Shown here: one piece after another, positions 47,142-61,048 of the stretch
Position numbering within the stretch: position 1 is the first letter of the stretch
Layout of the letters: each line of letters opens with the position of its first letter
Notes under the pieces: model-generated
The model's input: only the letters and a program-made list of their open reading frames with translations
Told to the model about the DNA's origin: nothing
Database searches by the model: none
DNA from: Winogradskya humida
GTDB taxonomy: Bacteria; Actinomycetota; Actinomycetes; Mycobacteriales; Micromonosporaceae
Reading direction: 5' to 3'
DNA length: 64,000 nt
Assembly (NCBI RefSeq): GCF_016862215.1
Contig: NZ_BOMN01000018.1
Location: 62,001 to 126,000 of the forward strand
Program-made: the position numbers and the translations under genes

Positions 47142-48944
47142 CTACATACCGTTGCCGATGAAGAAGCTCGGGTGCGGCGGCTGGTTGTAAGCGGTGTTCT
47201 GCCAGGCCAGAGCCGTGCGGTACTGGGTGTCCTGGAGCAGCGTCGTGATCCGCCGGTCCGTCTGGATCGGCGTCGAGTAGATCCGCAGCGCCGTGTTGTC
47301 GGTTGTCGGCCAGATCACTTCCTCACGCCAGTCACCGAGCAGATCACCGGAGAGTGACGGTGTGGACTTGGTCCCGTTGTTCGAGTGGACGCCGGACGCC
47401 GTCAGCAGCCTCGTGTCGGCGCTCGTGCCGTACTTGTCGATGTGCGTGGCGTCGAGCAGCTCGCGCACCGGGTCGCCGTCCCACCAGGCCAGGAAGTTCG
47501 TCGAGCCGGGCTTGCGACTGGCCACCACGGCACCGGAGGGGCTGCGCACGCCGTCGGCCGCCGCGGACCAGGACTCGGCGCCGGCGCTGCCCGCCCAGAT
47601 GTCGCCGGAGACCCCACGGCCGTTGTCACCGTTGGCGGGGGTCGACCAGATGATCTGACCGGTACGCGCGTCCGCGAACCACGACGACGGTTTGCTGGAG
47701 TCCTCGTCGACCTTGAACTCCTCCAGCCCGGGGCGCGACGGGTCGAGATCGCCGACGTGCATCGCGTCGCCGTGCCCGAGCCCGGTGTTCCACAGCTTCG
47801 CGCCGTTGTCGTCGATCGCCAGCGCGCCGTAGATGATCTCGTCCTTGCCGTCGGCGTCCACGTCCGCGATCGACAGCTGGTGGTTGCCCTGCCCCGCCGT
47901 GCCGGAGTTCGTGGAGCTGCTGCTGTCGAACGTCCAGCGCCGGGTCAGCGTCCCGTTGCGGAAGTCCCACGCGACCACGACGCTGCGGGTGTAGTAGCCG
48001 CGGGCCATGATGATGCTGGGCCGCGACCCGTCGAGATACGCGGTGCCGGCGAGGAACCTGTCGACGCGGTTACCATACGAGTCGCCCCACGACGAGACGG
48101 TCCCGCGCGGCGGCACGTAGTCCACGGTCGACAGCGCCGCGCCGTTGCGCCCGTCGAACACGGTCAGGAATTCCGGCCCGGTGAGGATGTATCCGCTGGA
48201 GTTGCGGTAGTCCGCGCTCGCGGAGCCGATGACCTGCCCGGTGCCCGAGACTGTCGCGTCGGCGGTCTTCATGGCGATCTCCGCGTCACCGTCGCCGTCG
48301 TAGTCGTACACCTGGAACTGGGTGTAATGCGCCCCCGCCCGGATGTTGCGCCCCAGATTGATCCGCCACAACCTGGTCCCGTCGAGCTTGTAACCGTCGA
48401 CGTAGACGGGGTCGGTGACCCCGGACTGCGAATTGTCCTTGGAGTTCAGCGGATCCCACTTGAGCACGAGGTCGAGCTTGCCGTCCCCGTCGAGATCGCC
48501 GACGCTCGCGTCGTTCGCCGCGTAGAGCGAGCTGTTGGGATTCTGGATCGGTACGTCCAGATAGCCGTTCGCGAAATTGAGCGACGCCCCCGAGGCTGCC
48601 TGTTCGACACCCCCGATCACAGCCCGCACTGTGTACGCGGAGCCGGCCGCGGCGCCCGCGTCGAGGTAGTTCGTCGACGCGGTGACCGGCGACGCGGTGA
48701 CCTTCGTGGTCCCGCGGTAGACGTTGAAGCCCACGCCCGCGGGATCGGTCGCCAGCAGCCGCCAGGTCACGAGGTTTCCGGTGCCGGAACGGACGCTGAC
48801 CAGGCCGCGGTCCAGGTTCTCGATCTGCTTGGCGAACAGCTGGGCCGGGGCATCCGCGGATCGGGCTGCTTGCGCGTGGGCCACCGGGGCTATCAGGAAG
48901 CTCGCGCCGAGGACCGCCACGGCCACCGCCGATGTCTTGGGCAT
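47142..48944 (-). CDS. Secreted rhamnogalacturonan lyase (PL11)
   Basis: 600 aa. Signal peptide with MPKTSAVAVAV core and cleavage near AHAQA. The polysaccharide lyase family 11 beta-propeller follows, with many calcium-loop repeats of the type DLDGDGKLDLVLKWDP, DYDGDGDAEIAMK and DVDADGKDEIIYG, plus ENLDRGLVSV at the start and GDWREEVIW near the end, as in Bacillus YesW/YesX. It cleaves the rhamnogalacturonan I backbone of pectin. ATG 48944 has GAGGTGAC directly upstream; the longer frame runs through the promoter. A CebR-like box lies 32 bp upstream of the start. Confidence 0.93.
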   Translation of the reverse strand: MPKTSAVAVAVLGASFLIAPVAHAQAARSADAPAQLFAKQIENLDRGLVSVRSGTGNLVTWRLLATDPAGVGFNVYRGTTKVTASPVTASTNYLDAGAAAGSAYTVRAVIGGVEQAASGASLNFANGYLDVPIQNPNSSLYAANDASVGDLDGDGKLDLVLKWDPLNSKDNSQSGVTDPVYVDGYKLDGTRLWRINLGRNIRAGAHYTQFQVYDYDGDGDAEIAMKTADATVSGTGQVIGSASADYRNSSGYILTGPEFLTVFDGRNGAALSTVDYVPPRGTVSSWGDSYGNRVDRFLAGTAYLDGSRPSIIMARGYYTRSVVVAWDFRNGTLTRRWTFDSSSSTNSGTAGQGNHQLSIADVDADGKDEIIYGALAIDDNGAKLWNTGLGHGDAMHVGDLDPSRPGLEEFKVDEDSSKPSSWFADARTGQIIWSTPANGDNGRGVSGDIWAGSAGAESWSAAADGVRSPSGAVVASRKPGSTNFLAWWDGDPVRELLDATHIDKYGTSADTRLLTASGVHSNNGTKSTPSLSGDLLGDWREEVIWPTTDNTALRIYSTPIQTDRRITTLLQDTQYRTALAWQNTAYNQPPHPSFFIGNGM

Positions 48945-48974
48945 GGTCACCTCACATTGACGTACGTGATTGTA

Positions 48975-48988
48975 CGGGAGCGCTCCCA
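48975..48988. promoter_or_regulatory. CebR/LacI-type operator, rhamnogalacturonan lyase
   Basis: CGGGAGCGCTCCCA differs from the Streptomyces CebR consensus TGGGAGCGCTCCCA at one base. It is 31 bp upstream of the lyase ATG. Confidence 0.75.
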
Positions 48989-55667: not shown

Positions 55668-57101
55668 TCAGGAGCCGATGGTCGCCTGGGGTCCGGCGTA
55701 GGTTGCCAGCAGGCTCGGGACGTCGGCTGCGGCGTCGAGGGTGTAGGCGTAGAAACTGCTCGGCGTGAAGGCGGATCCGTTCGTCTGCTGCTTGCCCGAG
55801 CTGTTCACGACGATGCTGCCGCTCTGCTTCAGCTGCGCGGCCGAGGTGTCGTTGTAGTACGGGTTGACGACGTTGCTGAAGTAGCTGTTCTCCAGCACGA
55901 GCTTGGTCGCGCCCCGGGACAGGTTGCCGTAGGACGTCACGTTCTGCAGGTAGTTGTTGTAGAGGTGGGCGTACGCGACGTTGTCGACGCTGGGGTTGCG
56001 CTGGTTGGTGTCGCGGATCCAGTTGTGGTGGATCGTCATCCGGGCCGTGACGTTGTCGGTCCAGCCGATGCCGAACGCCTTGTTCTCGCTGGCCAGAACG
56101 TTCCAGGAGACGGTCAGGTAGCTCGTGTCCTTGCGGCTGTCGATCAGGCCGTCGTTCATCCGGGTGATCGTGTTGTGGTCGATCCAGACATGGTCGGCGG
56201 TGTCCATCTGGATCCCGTCGTAGTCGTAGACCTTGTCGTCCGGGTCGTCCTCGGGCATCGCCGCGTCGCGGATCGTCAGGTTCCGGATGATGACGTTGTG
56301 GACGCCGGTGCCGAGGAAGAAGCCCCCGCCGACGATGTTCCCGCTGGTCCCGACGCCGACGATCGTCTTGTTGGACTGCACCTTGAGCTCGGTGCCCTTG
56401 GGGGTGACGGTGATCGCGCCCTGGACGCGGATGACGTACGGTTCCGTGGCCGTGACGTATTTCGTCAGGTCCGCGAGCGTGCTCACCGTGACCGTCGTCC
56501 CCGCCGCACCACCGGTCGTGCCGCCGCCGGTCGACGCGAAGCCGTCCGCCGCCGCCGGCCACGTGCGCCCGCCGACCGCGTTGAACGCCCACTGCTTGTT
56601 GGTGTTCGCCGTGCACGTCTCCTGGATGATGGCCGCACCCGACTCTGTCGACGCGTCCTTGTCACTGATGCACAGTTTGTTGCCGGCATTGACGATCTGG
56701 AACGTGTTCGTCCCGCTCGCCACCAGCGACCACAGCTGATTCGTCTGACTGGAGACACAGGTGTACTGCTGCAGCTGAACACCTGAGGTCGTCGACGAGG
56801 CGGGCACGTCGATGCACTTGCCACTGTTCACGTTGACCAGCTGGTAGTTCGAGCCGACAGCGGTGAGCTTGAACTGCTGCCAGGTGGCGCCGGACGTGCA
56901 GCCCCACTGCTGGAGCAGGACGCTGTTGTCCTTGGAGGCGGCCGGCACGTCGATGCACTTGCCGCTCTTGGCGACCGCGAGCTGATAGGTGGCACCCGCC
57001 GGTGGGAGGGCGGCTGCTTCCGAGGGCAGCATCGAGTAGCCCACCATCATGGCGGGGATGCCGATGAGCAGTGCGGCCCTTCGTTTCAGGGAGATCTTCA
57101 T
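55668..57101 (-). CDS. Secreted pectate lyase (PL1) with ricin-type lectin domain
   Basis: 477 aa. Signal peptide (KISLKRRAALLIGIPAMM, cleavage near SEAAAL). Residues ~38-185 are a ricin-B type lectin with Q-x-W repeats (LLQQWGC, QLQQYTC, QTNQLWSLV, KQWAFN). The catalytic domain is a PL1 parallel beta-helix with the WIDHNTI block, DGLIDSRKDTSYLTVSWN and HHNWIRDTNQRNPSV, where the Arg and Asp/Lys residues of PL1 active sites are present. It cleaves polygalacturonate by beta-elimination. The gene starts 11 bp after the pectinesterase gene, one operon. Its lectin domain is almost the same as that of the pectinesterase. Confidence 0.94.
   Translation of the reverse strand: MKISLKRRAALLIGIPAMMVGYSMLPSEAAALPPAGATYQLAVAKSGKCIDVPAASKDNSVLLQQWGCTSGATWQQFKLTAVGSNYQLVNVNSGKCIDVPASSTTSGVQLQQYTCVSSQTNQLWSLVASGTNTFQIVNAGNKLCISDKDASTESGAAIIQETCTANTNKQWAFNAVGGRTWPAAADGFASTGGGTTGGAAGTTVTVSTLADLTKYVTATEPYVIRVQGAITVTPKGTELKVQSNKTIVGVGTSGNIVGGGFFLGTGVHNVIIRNLTIRDAAMPEDDPDDKVYDYDGIQMDTADHVWIDHNTITRMNDGLIDSRKDTSYLTVSWNVLASENKAFGIGWTDNVTARMTIHHNWIRDTNQRNPSVDNVAYAHLYNNYLQNVTSYGNLSRGATKLVLENSYFSNVVNPYYNDTSAAQLKQSGSIVVNSSGKQQTNGSAFTPSSFYAYTLDAAADVPSLLATYAGPQATIGS
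56570..57020 (-). repeat. Ricin-domain DNA repeat, copy 1 (pectate lyase)
   Basis: About 450 bp coding for the lectin domain, nearly identical with 57990-58445. Long identical peptides and few base changes show recent duplication or gene conversion. Confidence 0.85.
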
Positions 57102-57112
57102 GGGGATGCCTC

Positions 57113-58567
57113 TCAGCCGATCGGGTTCCAGCCGTCACTGCCGGCCAGGTATTTCTGCGGGGTGTAGTTCGGTGCGGCCGAGTCGCTCAGCTGGGGACGG
57201 TTGCTGTTGGTGCCCGCGCCGGAGCCGGTGTTCCTGTACTCGAGGAACCGCGCGTTCTGCCACGTGTTACCGGACATGTCGGTCCACGGCTGCGCGGTCC
57301 TGATCGTCGCGCTGAGGGTCGACTCGCGATACAGGACCTGCGCGTTCGCACCCCAGGGCCGGCCCAGCTGCGTGACGTTGTTCGCCGCGCCGGTGACCGT
57401 GCACTTGTAGACGAGGATGCCGTACGTCTTGGCCGCATCGGTGTTCGCGGCGGTGATCGGGCCGCCGCTCGTACGCTTCTCATGGATCGTGGTCGCGTTG
57501 AATACCGTGGTGGCGCCGCCGAAGATGAAGTCCACGGTGCCCTCGACGTACGAGTTCACGACGTACGCGCGGTAGTTGTTGACCAGCAGCGTGTCCTGGT
57601 TGCCGAGGAACCGGACGTTGCTGAACACCGACCGGTCGGCGTTGAGGTTCGCGGCGACGGCCTGGCTGCCCTCGCCGTAGTCGTTGCTGATCGTCAGGTT
57701 CGTGGCGAGGAAGTCGTGCCCGTTGACGAACGCCGTGGCGCTGCCCGAGGTCCCGTACCCGCCGGCCGAGCTGTGATTGTTGACGATCACCGTGCCCGAG
57801 GCCGAGGAGCCCAGGCCCTGCAGCGTGACGTACGGCTTGTTCGACGGGATCGTGACGATCTCCCGGTACGTGCCGGCCTTGATCGTGATGACCTGCCGCG
57901 TCGTGGCGTTGGCGGGCACCGCGTCGATCGCCGCCTGAACGGTGGTGTACTTCCCCGTGCCGTCCGCGGCCACGGTCGGCGTGTCCGAACTCCCGGCGGC
58001 GTTGAACGCCCATTGCTTGTTCGAGTTCGCCGTGCACGTCTCCTGGATGATCGCCGCCCCCGATGACGTCGACGCATCCTTGTCACTGATGCACAGCTTG
58101 TTGCCGGCATTGACGATCTGGAACGTGTTCGTCCCGCTCGCCACCAGCGACCACAACTGATTCGTCTGACTCGAGACACACGTGTACTGCTGCAACTGGA
58201 CACCCGACGTCGTCGAGGCAGCGGGCACATCGATGCACTTGCCACTGTTCACGTTGACCAGCTGATAGTTCGAGCCGACAGCCGTGAGCTTGAACTGCTG
58301 CCACGTCGCACCGGAGGTACAGCCCCACTGCTGCAGCAGAACACTGTTGTCCTTGGAGGCGGCCGGCACGTCGATGCACATGCCGCTCTTCGCGACCGCG
58401 AGCTGATAGACGGCGCCCGCCGGTGGGAGTGCGGCCGCCTCCGAGGGCAGCATCGAAAAGCCCACCACAGCGGCAGGGACGGCCAGGACGAGCGCGGCGA
58501 GCGCGGCCCGCCGGGCGGAAACAGGCGGCGGGGACGGGCGTCGCCTTCGGGGGTCAGGTGCAGACAC
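57113..58567 (-). CDS. Secreted pectinesterase (CE8) with ricin-type lectin domain
   Basis: 484 aa from GTG 58567 (AGAGGA upstream). An Arg-rich N-terminus and hydrophobic core end near SEAAALP. A ricin-type lectin domain (~45-190) precedes the CE8 beta-helix: VAADGTGKYTTVQAAIDAVP, YREIVTIPSNKPYVTLQGLG, FLGNQDTLLVN (catalytic Asp region), VDFIFGGATTVF (catalytic Asp) and LGRPWG (conserved Arg/Trp). It removes methyl esters from pectin so the downstream lyase can act. A CebR-like operator is 22 bp upstream of the start. Confidence 0.94.
   Translation of the reverse strand: MSAPDPRRRRPSPPPVSARRAALAALVLAVPAAVVGFSMLPSEAAALPPAGAVYQLAVAKSGMCIDVPAASKDNSVLLQQWGCTSGATWQQFKLTAVGSNYQLVNVNSGKCIDVPAASTTSGVQLQQYTCVSSQTNQLWSLVASGTNTFQIVNAGNKLCISDKDASTSSGAAIIQETCTANSNKQWAFNAAGSSDTPTVAADGTGKYTTVQAAIDAVPANATTRQVITIKAGTYREIVTIPSNKPYVTLQGLGSSASGTVIVNNHSSAGGYGTSGSATAFVNGHDFLATNLTISNDYGEGSQAVAANLNADRSVFSNVRFLGNQDTLLVNNYRAYVVNSYVEGTVDFIFGGATTVFNATTIHEKRTSGGPITAANTDAAKTYGILVYKCTVTGAANNVTQLGRPWGANAQVLYRESTLSATIRTAQPWTDMSGNTWQNARFLEYRNTGSGAGTNSNRPQLSDSAAPNYTPQKYLAGSDGWNPIG
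57990..58445 (-). repeat. Ricin-domain DNA repeat, copy 2 (pectinesterase)
   Basis: The counterpart of 56570-57020 in direct orientation about 1.4 kb away; recombination between the copies would fuse the two genes. Confidence 0.85.
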
Positions 58568-58588: not shown

Positions 58589-58602
58589 CGGGAGCGCTCC
58601 CA
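58589..58602. promoter_or_regulatory. CebR/LacI-type operator, pectinase operon
   Basis: CGGGAGCGCTCCCA, identical with the box at the rhamnogalacturonan lyase promoter, 22 bp upstream of the pectinesterase GTG. Confidence 0.8.
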
Positions 58603-58939
58603 GGTGAACACGAGCGGTAACTGCCGCCTCGGTGGAAGGCGGCAGTGTGGTAGATACGCCGGTCGGGCCGGGACAACAGAAATTCCGCGGATTTCTTGCG
58701 GGCCGGTCGTGGTGCACGCGCTTTACACGCACGGAACAGCTGTGTAACGATACGGCTCCGGCATCGACAGTCGTCACGTTCTTGCAGCTCATGGACGATC
58801 GGTCACGCCCAGACCAGCGATGTTCGCCGATATGACGCGGCGCGGGCGGATGGCGGAGATGAGCGAGCAGCGCGGGCGCGGGCGACGCCCTCGACGCCCT
58901 CGACGCCAGGGCCACGCACCAGCTGAGGAGGCACCGCCG
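58603..58939. promoter_or_regulatory. Divergent region between pectinase operon and sigma-factor gene
   Basis: About 330 bp that must contain promoters for both directions. In-frame ATGs at 58820, 58832, 58850 and 58859 would add an Arg/Pro-rich leader to the sigma factor, but they lack spaced ribosome sites. No second CebR box seen. Confidence 0.45.
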
Positions 58940-61048
58940 GTGACGCAAAGTCAGATGGCGGCGGACGTCCCGCGGCTGGTCCGGGACGCTCAGCGCGGTG
59001 ACGCCGACGCCCGGGACGCGCTGATCGCGGCGCACCTCACCCTCGTCTACAACGTCATCGGCCGGGCGCTCGCGGGGCATCCCGACGTCGACGATCTCGT
59101 GCAGGAGACGATGCTCAAGGCGCTGCGCGGGCTGCCCGGCCTGCGCGAGCCCGAGCGGTTCCGGTCCTGGCTGGTGGCGATCGCCTACCGGCAGGTCCAG
59201 CTGCACCTCCGCGCGCGCCGGATGGCACGGCGGCGGCTGCTGACCGGGCCGGTCGAGGTCGCGGACCCGGCCGGGGACTTCGCCGAGCGCACCACCGCCG
59301 AGCTGGTCCTCGACGGTCAGCGCCGGGAACTCGTCGAGGCGACCCACTGGCTCGACGGCGACGACCGCCGGCTGCTCGGGCTCTGGTGGCAGGAGGCGTC
59401 CGGCGACCTGACCCGGGCGGAGCTCGCCGCCGCCCTGGACGTCGCGCCCAAACACGCCGCGGTGCGCGTGCAACGGATGAAGGCGCAGCTGGACGGGGCG
59501 CGTGGGGTCGTCCGGGCGTTGCACGCCCAGCCGCGCTGCCCCGATCTGAGCGCGCTGCTCGGGCGCTGGGACGGCGTCGCCGATCCGTTGTGGCGCAAAC
59601 GGCTCGGCCGCCATGTCCGGGACTGTGCGCTGTGCAGCCGGCGTGGACAGGGCCTCATCGCGCCCGATCAGCTTCTGCTCGGCGTCGCCGCTCTGCCCGT
59701 ACCGGCCGCGATCGTGACCGGAATCCTCGCCAAAGCGGGAACCTCGGCGGGCGCTTTTGTGCAGCACAAGGTGCTGGCGGCAGCGGTCACCGCGGCGGCC
59801 GTCACGGCGGGCGGCGGGATCGTGTTCGCGGTGTATCACGAGCCTGCGCCCGAAGAGTTCCGGGCAGCGGTCCCACCGGCCGTGGCAACGACCGCGCCCG
59901 CGCAGACTCCGGCCGTGACGGCGCCGGCGACCCGGGCGACGCCGTCCTCGACCGGTAGCGCGCAGAAGGCAGTGCCGACGTTCATCACGGGGGTACGCAA
60001 GGCGGACATCTTCGTCGCCCCCGGTGGAAGTGACGACGCGGACGGGACGCAGGCGCATCCGTACGCGAGCGTCGCCAAGGCCGTCGCCGTGGTGGGGCCA
60101 GGGCAGACGATCGCGGTGCGGGGCGGCACGTACCGGCCGGAGCAGGGGATCTCGATCACGACGGACGGCACCGCCGCCAAGCCGATCGTGCTGAGCAACT
60201 ACGGCAACGAGCAACCGGTCATCGACGCGGCGGACGTTCCCGCCGATCAGTGGGCGATCACGCAGCGGACGGCGTACTGGCGGGTGCAGGGCCTGGAGGT
60301 TGTCCGTTCGCGCAGTCACGCGTACGTGTGCAGGTCCTGTTCGAACAACGTCTTTCAGCGGCTGAAGCTGCACGGCAACGCCCGCTCGGGCCTAATGCTG
60401 CGCGACGCCGGGACGACCGGCAACCAGATCCTGGACAACGACTTCTTCGACAACCGTGACCCTGCTGGAGCGAGCGGGGCCGGAGCGAGCGGGGCCGGCA
60501 TCGGGCTGGGGGTCCAGTTCGGGGACGGCGGCGGGAACCTGATCCGCGGGAACCGCGCCTACGGCAATGCGGGCGCCGGTTTCGACCTGGGCGCCTTCAC
60601 CGGGCCGGTCACGATGGAGCACAACTGGTCCTACCGCAACGGCGGCAGCGGTTTCGTGCTCGGCGGGGGCAGTCCCGCCGCAGCAGCCGCCCACCACCTG
60701 CGTCACGACGCCGCGTGGGACAACGGCAGCAACGGCTTCGACGACGAGGGCAACACCGCCGCCGTCGAGCTGACGAACAACACCGCGTTCCGCAACCGGG
60801 CGGTCGGCTTCGCGATGCGATCGTCGGCGGCAAGGCTGCGGTCGAACGCGGCGATCGGCAACGCGCAGACCGACGACGTCACGGACAAAGTCGCGCAGAG
60901 CCGCAACAGCTGGCAGGGCAACGACGTGGTGCTCCGCTCCACGGACCCGACGGTCACGGAGGGCCCCCGCCCCGGGACAGGGGCCCTCCCCCGCACCGAC
61001 TATCTGGCCACGGGCAACGGGGTCGGCGCTTCCATGGACGCGGCCTGA
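58940..61048 (+). CDS. ECF sigma factor fused to zinc-finger, membrane and beta-helix sensor domains
   Basis: 702 aa from GTG 58940 (GAGGAGG upstream). Residues ~10-95: sigma region 2 (GHPDVDDLVQETMLKALRGL). ~145-185: region 4 HTH (LTRAELAAALDVAPKHAAVR). ~225-232: H-x3-C-x2-C (RHVRDCALC), the zinc anti-sigma motif. A hydrophobic stretch at ~245-265 and a clearer membrane helix at ~278-300 (AAAVTAAAVTAGGGIVFAV) follow, then a Thr/Pro/Ala linker. From ~355 to the end lies a right-handed parallel beta-helix beginning DIFVAPGGSDDADGTQ, of the PL9 pectate lyase type, but the family's NADGFAAK and DDGWD blocks are replaced (GIGLGVQF; GAGFDL), so it is probably non-catalytic. The layout suggests one protein that senses polysaccharide outside and redirects RNA polymerase inside. 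Confidence 0.88.
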   Translation: MTQSQMAADVPRLVRDAQRGDADARDALIAAHLTLVYNVIGRALAGHPDVDDLVQETMLKALRGLPGLREPERFRSWLVAIAYRQVQLHLRARRMARRRLLTGPVEVADPAGDFAERTTAELVLDGQRRELVEATHWLDGDDRRLLGLWWQEASGDLTRAELAAALDVAPKHAAVRVQRMKAQLDGARGVVRALHAQPRCPDLSALLGRWDGVADPLWRKRLGRHVRDCALCSRRGQGLIAPDQLLLGVAALPVPAAIVTGILAKAGTSAGAFVQHKVLAAAVTAAAVTAGGGIVFAVYHEPAPEEFRAAVPPAVATTAPAQTPAVTAPATRATPSSTGSAQKAVPTFITGVRKADIFVAPGGSDDADGTQAHPYASVAKAVAVVGPGQTIAVRGGTYRPEQGISITTDGTAAKPIVLSNYGNEQPVIDAADVPADQWAITQRTAYWRVQGLEVVRSRSHAYVCRSCSNNVFQRLKLHGNARSGLMLRDAGTTGNQILDNDFFDNRDPAGASGAGASGAGIGLGVQFGDGGGNLIRGNRAYGNAGAGFDLGAFTGPVTMEHNWSYRNGGSGFVLGGGSPAAAAAHHLRHDAAWDNGSNGFDDEGNTAAVELTNNTAFRNRAVGFAMRSSAARLRSNAAIGNAQTDDVTDKVAQSRNSWQGNDVVLRSTDPTVTEGPRPGTGALPRTDYLATGNGVGASMDAA

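Follow-up and report, generated by a model that had tools for sequence, protein, structure and literature searches.

A fused sigma factor gene beside a pectinase operon

The DNA analysed here (the window) is a stretch of 64,000 nucleotides from Winogradskya humida which carries, at 58940..61048 on the + strand, a gene that fuses sigma, anti-sigma, membrane and pseudo-lyase parts into one protein of 702 aa with a GTG start. The reading frame has no stop from an ATG at 58820 to 61048, giving a long form of 742 residues. The start at 58820 was dropped for the GTG at 58940, as in the original prediction, since a V-T-Q/E-S-Q N-terminus is common to most orthologues.

Sigma region 2 lies at residues 28-94 of 702 (59021..59221, +; Pfam PF04542 (Sigma70_r2), E 1.2e-12) and a divergent region 4 at about residues 140-195 (59357..59524, +), as delimited by the TIGR02937 span and by AlphaFold2 helices. 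The sigma70-ECF model TIGR02937 covers regions 2 to 4 (E 2.8e-17), and AlphaFold2 predicts a helix at residues 170-195, within the divergent region 4. A Pfam region-4 match is absent from the 702-aa protein, this region being too divergent. Of the two regions initially claimed, region 2 is hence upheld by Pfam, whereas region 4 is upheld by the TIGR02937 span and the predicted helix but not by Pfam. The zinc anti-sigma motif Cys200-x24-His225-x3-Cys229-x2-Cys232 follows (59537..59635, +). All four ligands are invariant among 19 aligned full-length proteins and also in broader sets of 36 and 47, in agreement with the H-x3-C-x2-C motif seen at first reading. An ECF sigma factor and a zinc anti-sigma motif are therefore present in a single chain, as in ECF52/ECF53-like fused sigma factors.

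A membrane segment is predicted at residues 278-296 (59771..59827, +; hydropathy 1.99). A second hydrophobic stretch is found at residues 245-263, so that the topology is less certain: of the membrane helix that had been claimed, the hydrophobic stretch at 278-296 stands and the topology is weakened. Lys and Arg are commoner before than after segment 278-296 in 10 of the 13 proteins checked, and equal in 3 of the 13. AlphaFold2 confidence is low at residues 265-345 in one model and over most of 250-345 in the other, and a topology derived from AlphaFold2 was dropped for this low confidence of the membrane region in both models. A Pro/Thr linker then leads to a PL9-type beta-helix, the putative sensor (residues 354-699; 59999..61036, +). 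This domain matches Pel9A-like_beta_helix PF22842 (E 4e-8, above the model cut-off), NCBIfam PelN (E 7.7e-28, yet far under the PelN model cut-off) and the Pel9A structure 1ru4 (E 5.7e-23), as anticipated for a pectate-lyase-like beta-helix in the same frame as the sigma factor. The right-handed beta-helix fold of PL9, a carbohydrate-related C-terminal domain, is hence present, and it is not a free secreted enzyme here: it sits behind a sigma factor in one chain. The positive-inside pattern, the linker and the descent of the helix from secreted proteins (see below) lead us to infer that the sensor domain lies outside the cell.

On the opposite strand, a secreted pectinesterase (CE8) with a ricin-type lectin domain occupies 57113..58567 (-; Pfam E 1.9e-53 on 57113-58468), its GTG start having been read by eye, and is followed by a secreted pectate lyase (PF00544), also with a ricin-type lectin domain (55668..57101, -; Pfam E 8.7e-20). 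A rhamnogalacturonan lyase RGL11 (PL11), identified by Pfam, is encoded at 47142..48950 (-), with a palindrome upstream at 48976. This PL11 lyase and a CBM2-GDSL esterase lie about 9-12 kb upstream of the fused gene in the same window.

The fusion is conserved among relatives

The original prediction could have been undone by a sequencing or assembly error joining two genes at 59.8-60.0 kb. We searched 60 genomes with the 742-residue frame, 35 of them same-genus relatives. Matches over at least 664 of the 742 query residues were found in 16 of these 35, at 59-64% identity. Two copies occur in G033 and also in G019, where the second is more distant; the copy of G032 is split over two frames, and G020 keeps the sensor part only. 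We extracted 20 regions, 18 of which gave full-length frames, and aligned these with the window protein (19 rows). The window protein and the 18 full-length relatives all have a single sigma/anti-sigma frame, with separate genes absent, and the relatives align end to end. The same architecture recurs in named Actinoplanes/Paractinoplanes, Catellatospora, Micromonospora and Streptomyces genomes. Full-length relatives in so many genomes rule out an assembly error: the chain of sigma factor, zinc motif, hydrophobic segment and beta-helix in the same frame is real and conserved.

The same chassis carries other sensors, and pectinases accompany the PL9 type

Relatives of the first 330 residues (the chassis) bear at least eight kinds of C-terminal part. 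Clustering of 135 C-termini gave 44 CAP, 35 GHcc (PF11790), 34 beta-helix, 13 AbfB, 4 unknown and 2 Lcl_C, with GH99, no-Pfam and low-complexity singletons; these 135 count six loci twice, and Pfam was run on ten representatives. The beta-helix cluster of 34 comprises 33 PL9-type domains and L128, a different helix. The W. humida genome itself holds two sister sigma genes, one GHcc-type and one AbfB-type. Loci L144-L209, mostly from Streptomyces, have the same sigma chassis with a CAP domain, and many carry the element described below ahead of the sigma gene. L012 (G000:C114:11026) appears to be a decayed copy, a small piece of sigma factor with 57% identity to residues 50-118 of the long, 742-residue form.

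In 20 of 28 PL9-type loci, a set that leaves out two broken copies (L067, with a split frame, and L069, with the sensor part only), the adjacent gene is a pectinesterase close to that of the window, and a pectate lyase comes next in 15 of these 20. Such a pectinesterase was found within three genes on either side (583 genes) in 0 of 100 loci that combine this chassis with other sensors, one of which is counted twice (L106 = L159). A scan of ten such neighbours identified 8 pectinesterases (2 of them, both from Streptomyces, joined to GH28) and 2 pectate lyases. The remaining 8 of the 28 loci have no adjacent pectinesterase. At the level of whole genomes, a pectinesterase of at least 60% identity is present in 21 of 21 genomes with the sigma gene (sigma-plus) versus 3 of 19 without it (sigma-minus). 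The link with pectinases, first noted as mere adjacency in the window, is thus stronger than claimed, both in the comparison of loci (20/28 versus 0/100) and through a promoter element on pectin genes.

A bipartite element ahead of pectinase and chassis genes

Between the divergent genes we found a predicted sigma-dependent promoter, TGTTGTC-N15-TATCTACC (58649..58678, -), facing the pectinesterase-pectate lyase operon; the same bipartite element at 58678-58649 (-) can also be given as TGTTGTC-N15-CATCTACC. The fused gene is preceded by a vegetative-promoter-like sequence, TTTACA-N18-AACGATAC (58722..58753, +), and several relatives carry TTTACA-N17-18-CACGATAC at this place. A palindrome, GGGAGCGCTCCC, which resembles a LacI-type operator, lies between the promoter and the pectinesterase start (58590..58601, -). 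It occurs at two places in the window, 58590 (ahead of the pectinesterase) and 48976 (ahead of PL11), and suggests an added repressor of the LacI type. No sigma-type element was found ahead of the window PL11 lyase, which was rejected as a target.

Both boxes, at a spacing of 15 and with at least 13 of 15 matches, are present in 17 of the 28 PL9-type upstream regions. Others show a spacing of 16 or more mismatches, and some, L054, L066 and L068 among them, have no convincing element; overall, the spacing of 15 is near constant. A matrix was built from the 17 regions and run on the loci with other sensors, which had played no part in making it; 974 windows taken ahead of the other genes there served as controls (99th percentile, 15.0). 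This threshold was exceeded in 22 of 35 GHcc-type loci (one counted twice, L106 = L159) and in 10 of 44 CAP-type loci, and 31 of these 32 elements read toward the sigma gene. They are mostly written TGTTATC-N15-CGTCTCC. Among the other types, the matrix rose above threshold in 0 of 13 AbfB, 0 of 2 Lcl and 1 of 4 unknown loci, and in neither single one. In loci with other sensors (L090-L129, L143-L209), 53 of 61 matches to the consensus pattern (first base T or C) stand directly ahead of a chassis gene.

Where the pectinases lie on the strand of the sigma gene, the element of L134 fronts a pectate-lyase-like gene, a pectinesterase and then the sigma gene, that of L142 lies between the sigma gene and the pectinesterase, and none was found in L068. 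Since the fused gene has a vegetative-like promoter of its own, this promoter class seems, from these upstream sequences, to have switched in the PL9-type loci from serving the sigma gene itself to serving the pectinase operon.

Pectin genes are faced by the element across genomes

We then used a strict pattern, TGTTRTC-N15-17-RTCTMC, with the reversed pattern as control. The W. humida genome (11.1 Mb) contains three strict sites, one in the window, one ahead of the GHcc-type sister gene and one inside a coding frame, and the reversed control gave 0. Loose matching in this genome, rejected as barely above the control (14 places at up to two mismatches versus 9 with the reversed pattern), led us to use exact pattern matches only. 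Across 40 genomes of the genus, 145 strict sites were found, versus 21 with the reversed pattern.

TCTAC-type sites (46, counted by hand) divide into 40 in the 21 sigma-plus and 6 in the 19 sigma-minus genomes, with G032 (split copy) scored as plus and G020 (sensor part only) as minus. Fourteen of them lie at the sigma locus and were set aside before comparison of the other 26 and 6; of these fourteen, 11 face a pectinesterase. The sigma-locus sites of G019, G028 and G029, together with the element of L141, face a gene that, on inspection by eye, reads as one for DNA polymerase IV. Among the sites outside the sigma locus, 21 of 26 in sigma-plus genomes face genes for secreted pectin-related proteins, versus 0 of 6 in sigma-minus ones (Fisher p 0.0005; the genomes are related, so Fisher values overstate independence). 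Five of the 26 do not face pectin genes, three of these lying inside coding frames. We scanned 22 target proteins, that is, the 21 distant targets and L300 (the sigma locus of G354), and obtained 10 pectinesterases, 7 RGL11, 4 pectate lyases, 1 GH43 and 1 CE2/GDSL esterase; 1 of the 4 pectate lyases shares its protein with a pectinesterase, and L312 and L317 are just under the Pfam cut-off.

Seven genomes without a pectinesterase adjacent to the sigma gene were searched, and in all seven the element fronts pectin genes at other places. These are pectinesterase-pectate lyase pairs in G007, G015, G026, G028 and G029, a pectate lyase and PL11 in G021, and PL11 in G019. In sigma-plus genomes the element (score above 17, a cut-off set after the scores were seen) precedes 23 of 45 close pectinesterases and is lacking from 22, so that it marks about half of them; it precedes 0 of the 7 distant pectinesterases examined in these genomes. 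Among 9 pectinesterases of sigma-minus genomes the only one preceded by the element is in G020, which keeps just the sensor remnant (L069).

A further 99 sites end in TCTCC, and of those away from sigma loci three were read (L309-L311), along with some in loci that were already part of the set. Proteins with a GHcc domain act on beta-1,3-glucan. Among the GHcc-type targets read, GH64 (L097), GH16 (L310) and a thaumatin-like protein (L155) fit this polymer, while a SARP-type regulator (L309), a sugar-binding-type protein (L311) and a DUF1996 protein (L191) are silent on it. Many of the GHcc-type sister sigma genes (L090-L127) have a TGTTATC/GTCTCC element, and GH64, GH16 and the thaumatin-like protein, which are among the divergent or distant targets, point to beta-1,3-glucan. 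The sequence TGTTATCCATTGACACCCGGCCCGTCTCC recurs in several genomes of the genus, and at L309 (G003:C40:223629) it faces the SARP-type (BTAD) regulator. At L113, near a sister gene of unknown type, the element faces an alginate-lyase-like secreted gene.

The sigma part of the window protein presumably reads the TGTTGTC/CATCTAC element, as its distribution over sequenced genomes indicates. A different reading, in which the fused sigma answers cell-wall or other stress, the PL9 domain is merely a wall anchor and the linkage to pectinases reflects hitch-hiking, could draw on the 44 of 135 clustered sister C-termini that are CAP domains, with no carbohydrate enzyme, and on the 8 of 28 PL9-type loci that have no pectinase neighbour. 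We regard it as unlikely, given that the linkage is specific to the PL9 sensor (20/28 versus 0/100 loci) and that most sites outside the sigma locus front pectin genes (21/26). No better placed is the proposal that the element belongs to another sigma factor or to a repressor, the fused protein controlling something else. The LacI-type palindrome, which lies next to the promoter of the pectinesterase and also upstream of PL11, would agree with this, as would the 98 region-2 matches of the W. humida genome, which mean that many other sigma factors exist; yet the element accompanies the chassis in different genera and with different sensors, with 53 of 61 matches directly ahead of a chassis gene and a spacing of 15 that is near constant, and the odds appear to be well against another regulator.

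The sensor is a decayed PL9 enzyme

To place the catalytic set, we aligned the sensor with 1ru4, whose chain numbers fit the residue range once 25 is added. Lys273 of Pel9A is taken here as the catalytic lysine, and the four PL9 Asp positions as the calcium ligands. The position of the lysine is occupied in the window protein by Val573 (60656..60658, +), and the active-site columns read Ile-Gly-Ala-Asp-Val, so that 1 of the 4 calcium Asp is kept (Asp549, equivalent to Asp237). The claim that the catalytic and calcium blocks of PL9 had been lost is correct for the lysine and for three Asp, but not for the Asp237 equivalent.

We built a sensor tree of 62 rows from which the five active-site columns were excluded. 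L067 (split over two frames) was left out and L069 (sensor part only) kept in; L088 was also left out, as it lacks the three-Asp stretch in the 1ru4 alignment, with Lys and the first Asp kept. The 29 fused sensors form one clade (100/98) within secreted PL9 proteins, and all 33 secreted rows keep Asp-Asp-Asp-Asp-Lys. The basal fused rows, from S. xylophagus, S. fuscichromogenes and C. methionotrophica, read Asp-Gly-Asp-Asp-Lys, that is, Lys and 3 of the 4 Asp. The other 26 of the 29 (100/99), with the window protein among them, have lost Lys and the first Asp, Lys being replaced by Ala, Val, Thr, His or Ser. At the level of the tree, the beta-helix sensor is a descendant of secreted PL9 lyases. 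Given the basal rows that keep Lys and the Lys-less clade, all inside secreted PL9, it is most likely that the fusion arose with a near-complete active site and that decay came later. A pair of cysteines, Cys464/Cys467, present in 29 of 29 fused sensors, was dropped as a special sensor feature, since it is also found in 23 of the 27 secreted PL9 rows compared, and is read as structural. In a more distant genome, L226 (G130:C52) joins a sigma-like N-terminus and the beginning of a PL9-type helix in one frame. That the sensor is a working lyase producing its own signal by cutting pectin is very improbable, for although the three basal fusions keep Lys and 3 of 4 Asp, the window protein has Val for Lys and the Asp237 equivalent as the one calcium Asp left of four.

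In a tree of the chassis (128 rows), the sensor labels need 12 changes versus 70 in shuffles. L067 is in this tree and L069 is out; seven loci were left out as duplicates, six being true duplicates and L148 not. The 26 Lys-less PL9-type rows, which differ from the 26 of the sensor tree by one row, form one clade (SH-aLRT 99), with the three Lys-keeping rows apart. A single origin of the PL9-type chassis was not upheld, as the Lys-keeping rows lie elsewhere, the branches that separate them are weak, and long branches meet. On these grounds, the chassis tree suggests that there may have been one or two captures.

A putative one-protein pectin sensor and regulator

The fusion, the conservation of the zinc ligands, the PL9 descent and decay of the sensor, and the element with its pectin targets are directly apparent at the level of sequence. 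Our preferred reading, to which we give a probability of roughly three in four, is that the fused protein would be a self-contained pectin sensor and regulator in one protein. Its N-terminal ECF sigma factor would be kept inactive by the fused zinc anti-sigma domain behind it, and a single membrane helix would anchor both. The PL9 pectate-lyase fold, carried outside the cell by a flexible Pro/Thr linker, would bind pectin or its fragments, with no cutting; we propose binding rather than cutting for the loss of the catalytic base and of most calcium ligands. Pectin binding would free the sigma part, probably via cleavage at the membrane, and the freed sigma would read TGTT(G/A)TC-N15-(C/G)(A/G)TCTAC promoters and turn on the genes for pectinesterase, pectate lyase and rhamnogalacturonan lyase, with others related to them. 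That the sensor binds a pectic ligand and that the sigma part is freed by proteolysis are steps that we infer.

Fused ECF/anti-sigma proteins of Actinobacteria are, as the original prediction held, already in print (PMC8999054, PMC5826349, PMC10766802). ECF52 and ECF53 combine an ECF sigma factor, a zinc anti-sigma domain and one to two membrane helices (PMC8999054, PMC5826349), and the chain of the characterized SCO4117 also includes a Pro-rich stretch as well as a carbohydrate-binding domain (PMC5826349). For ECF52/53 it has been proposed that the fused anti-sigma domain holds the sigma factor, with proteolysis as the expected release (PMC8999054), and another report mentions fusions of this kind in which the domain is a predicted glycosyl hydrolase or binds carbohydrate (PMC10766802). 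The window protein resembles ECF52/ECF53 in having sigma factor, zinc anti-sigma motif and carbohydrate-related C-terminus in one chain. It differs in its putative outside part, which is a decayed PL9 lyase, whereas carbohydrate-binding or predicted glycosyl hydrolase domains are described for ECF52/53 (PMC10766802).

In Clostridium thermocellum, sigI3 recognizes pl11 and ce12 promoters (PMC4711584, PMC6056542), and its membrane anti-sigma partner RsgI3 binds pectin outside via PA14 repeats (PMC4711584). The two systems would be alike, on the features predicted for the window protein, in the outside pectin-type domain, the membrane anti-sigma factor and a sigma factor acting on pectin genes, but sigI3/RsgI3 consists of two proteins, with another sigma family, a PA14 sensor and another promoter type. 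RsgI6 of the same organism is described as a GH10 enzyme fold with very low activity and binding kept (PMC4711584); it differs from the window protein in its GH10 fold, in its ligands xylan and cellulose, and in belonging to a two-protein system. Pel9A (1ru4) is a free enzyme with an intact Lys/Asp set in our alignment, whereas the window protein is fused and has Val573 in place of Lys. The PL9-like rhamnogalacturonan lyase 5olr is likewise a free enzyme, unlike the fused window sensor; the Lys/Asp alignment was made with 1ru4 only. A search of the open-licence literature found no report of a PL9-type pseudo-lyase sensor, of the TGTTGTC/CATCTAC promoter or of this pectin regulon, and a pectate-lyase-like fold as external sensor appears, as first supposed, to be undescribed there.

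Little is known of the signals and regulons of these fused sigma factors, and our results provide a specific and cheap test for the family: the promoter element, the pectin targets predicted from it, and the comparison that nature offers between genomes with and without the sigma gene. A fused pectin sensor would be a single-chain parallel to the clostridial sigI3/RsgI3, and the tree-ordered series, which leads from active lyase over fusions that keep Lys to dead sensors, would be a clear case of an enzyme turned receptor. More broadly, we lean slightly towards viewing the chassis as a plug-in platform, which would have taken up outside domains repeatedly, several from retired or active polysaccharide enzymes, each version reading its own promoter dialect ahead of enzymes for the same polymer. 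The dialects would be, with odds a little better than even, CATCTAC for decayed PL9 sensors and pectinases and GTCTCC for GHcc sensors and beta-1,3-glucanases, few targets having been read for the latter. On this view, the PL9 branch would show in successive steps how an enzyme became a receptor. A modular sensor of polysaccharides made of one protein would be useful in building biosensors and in controlling enzymes for plant biomass.
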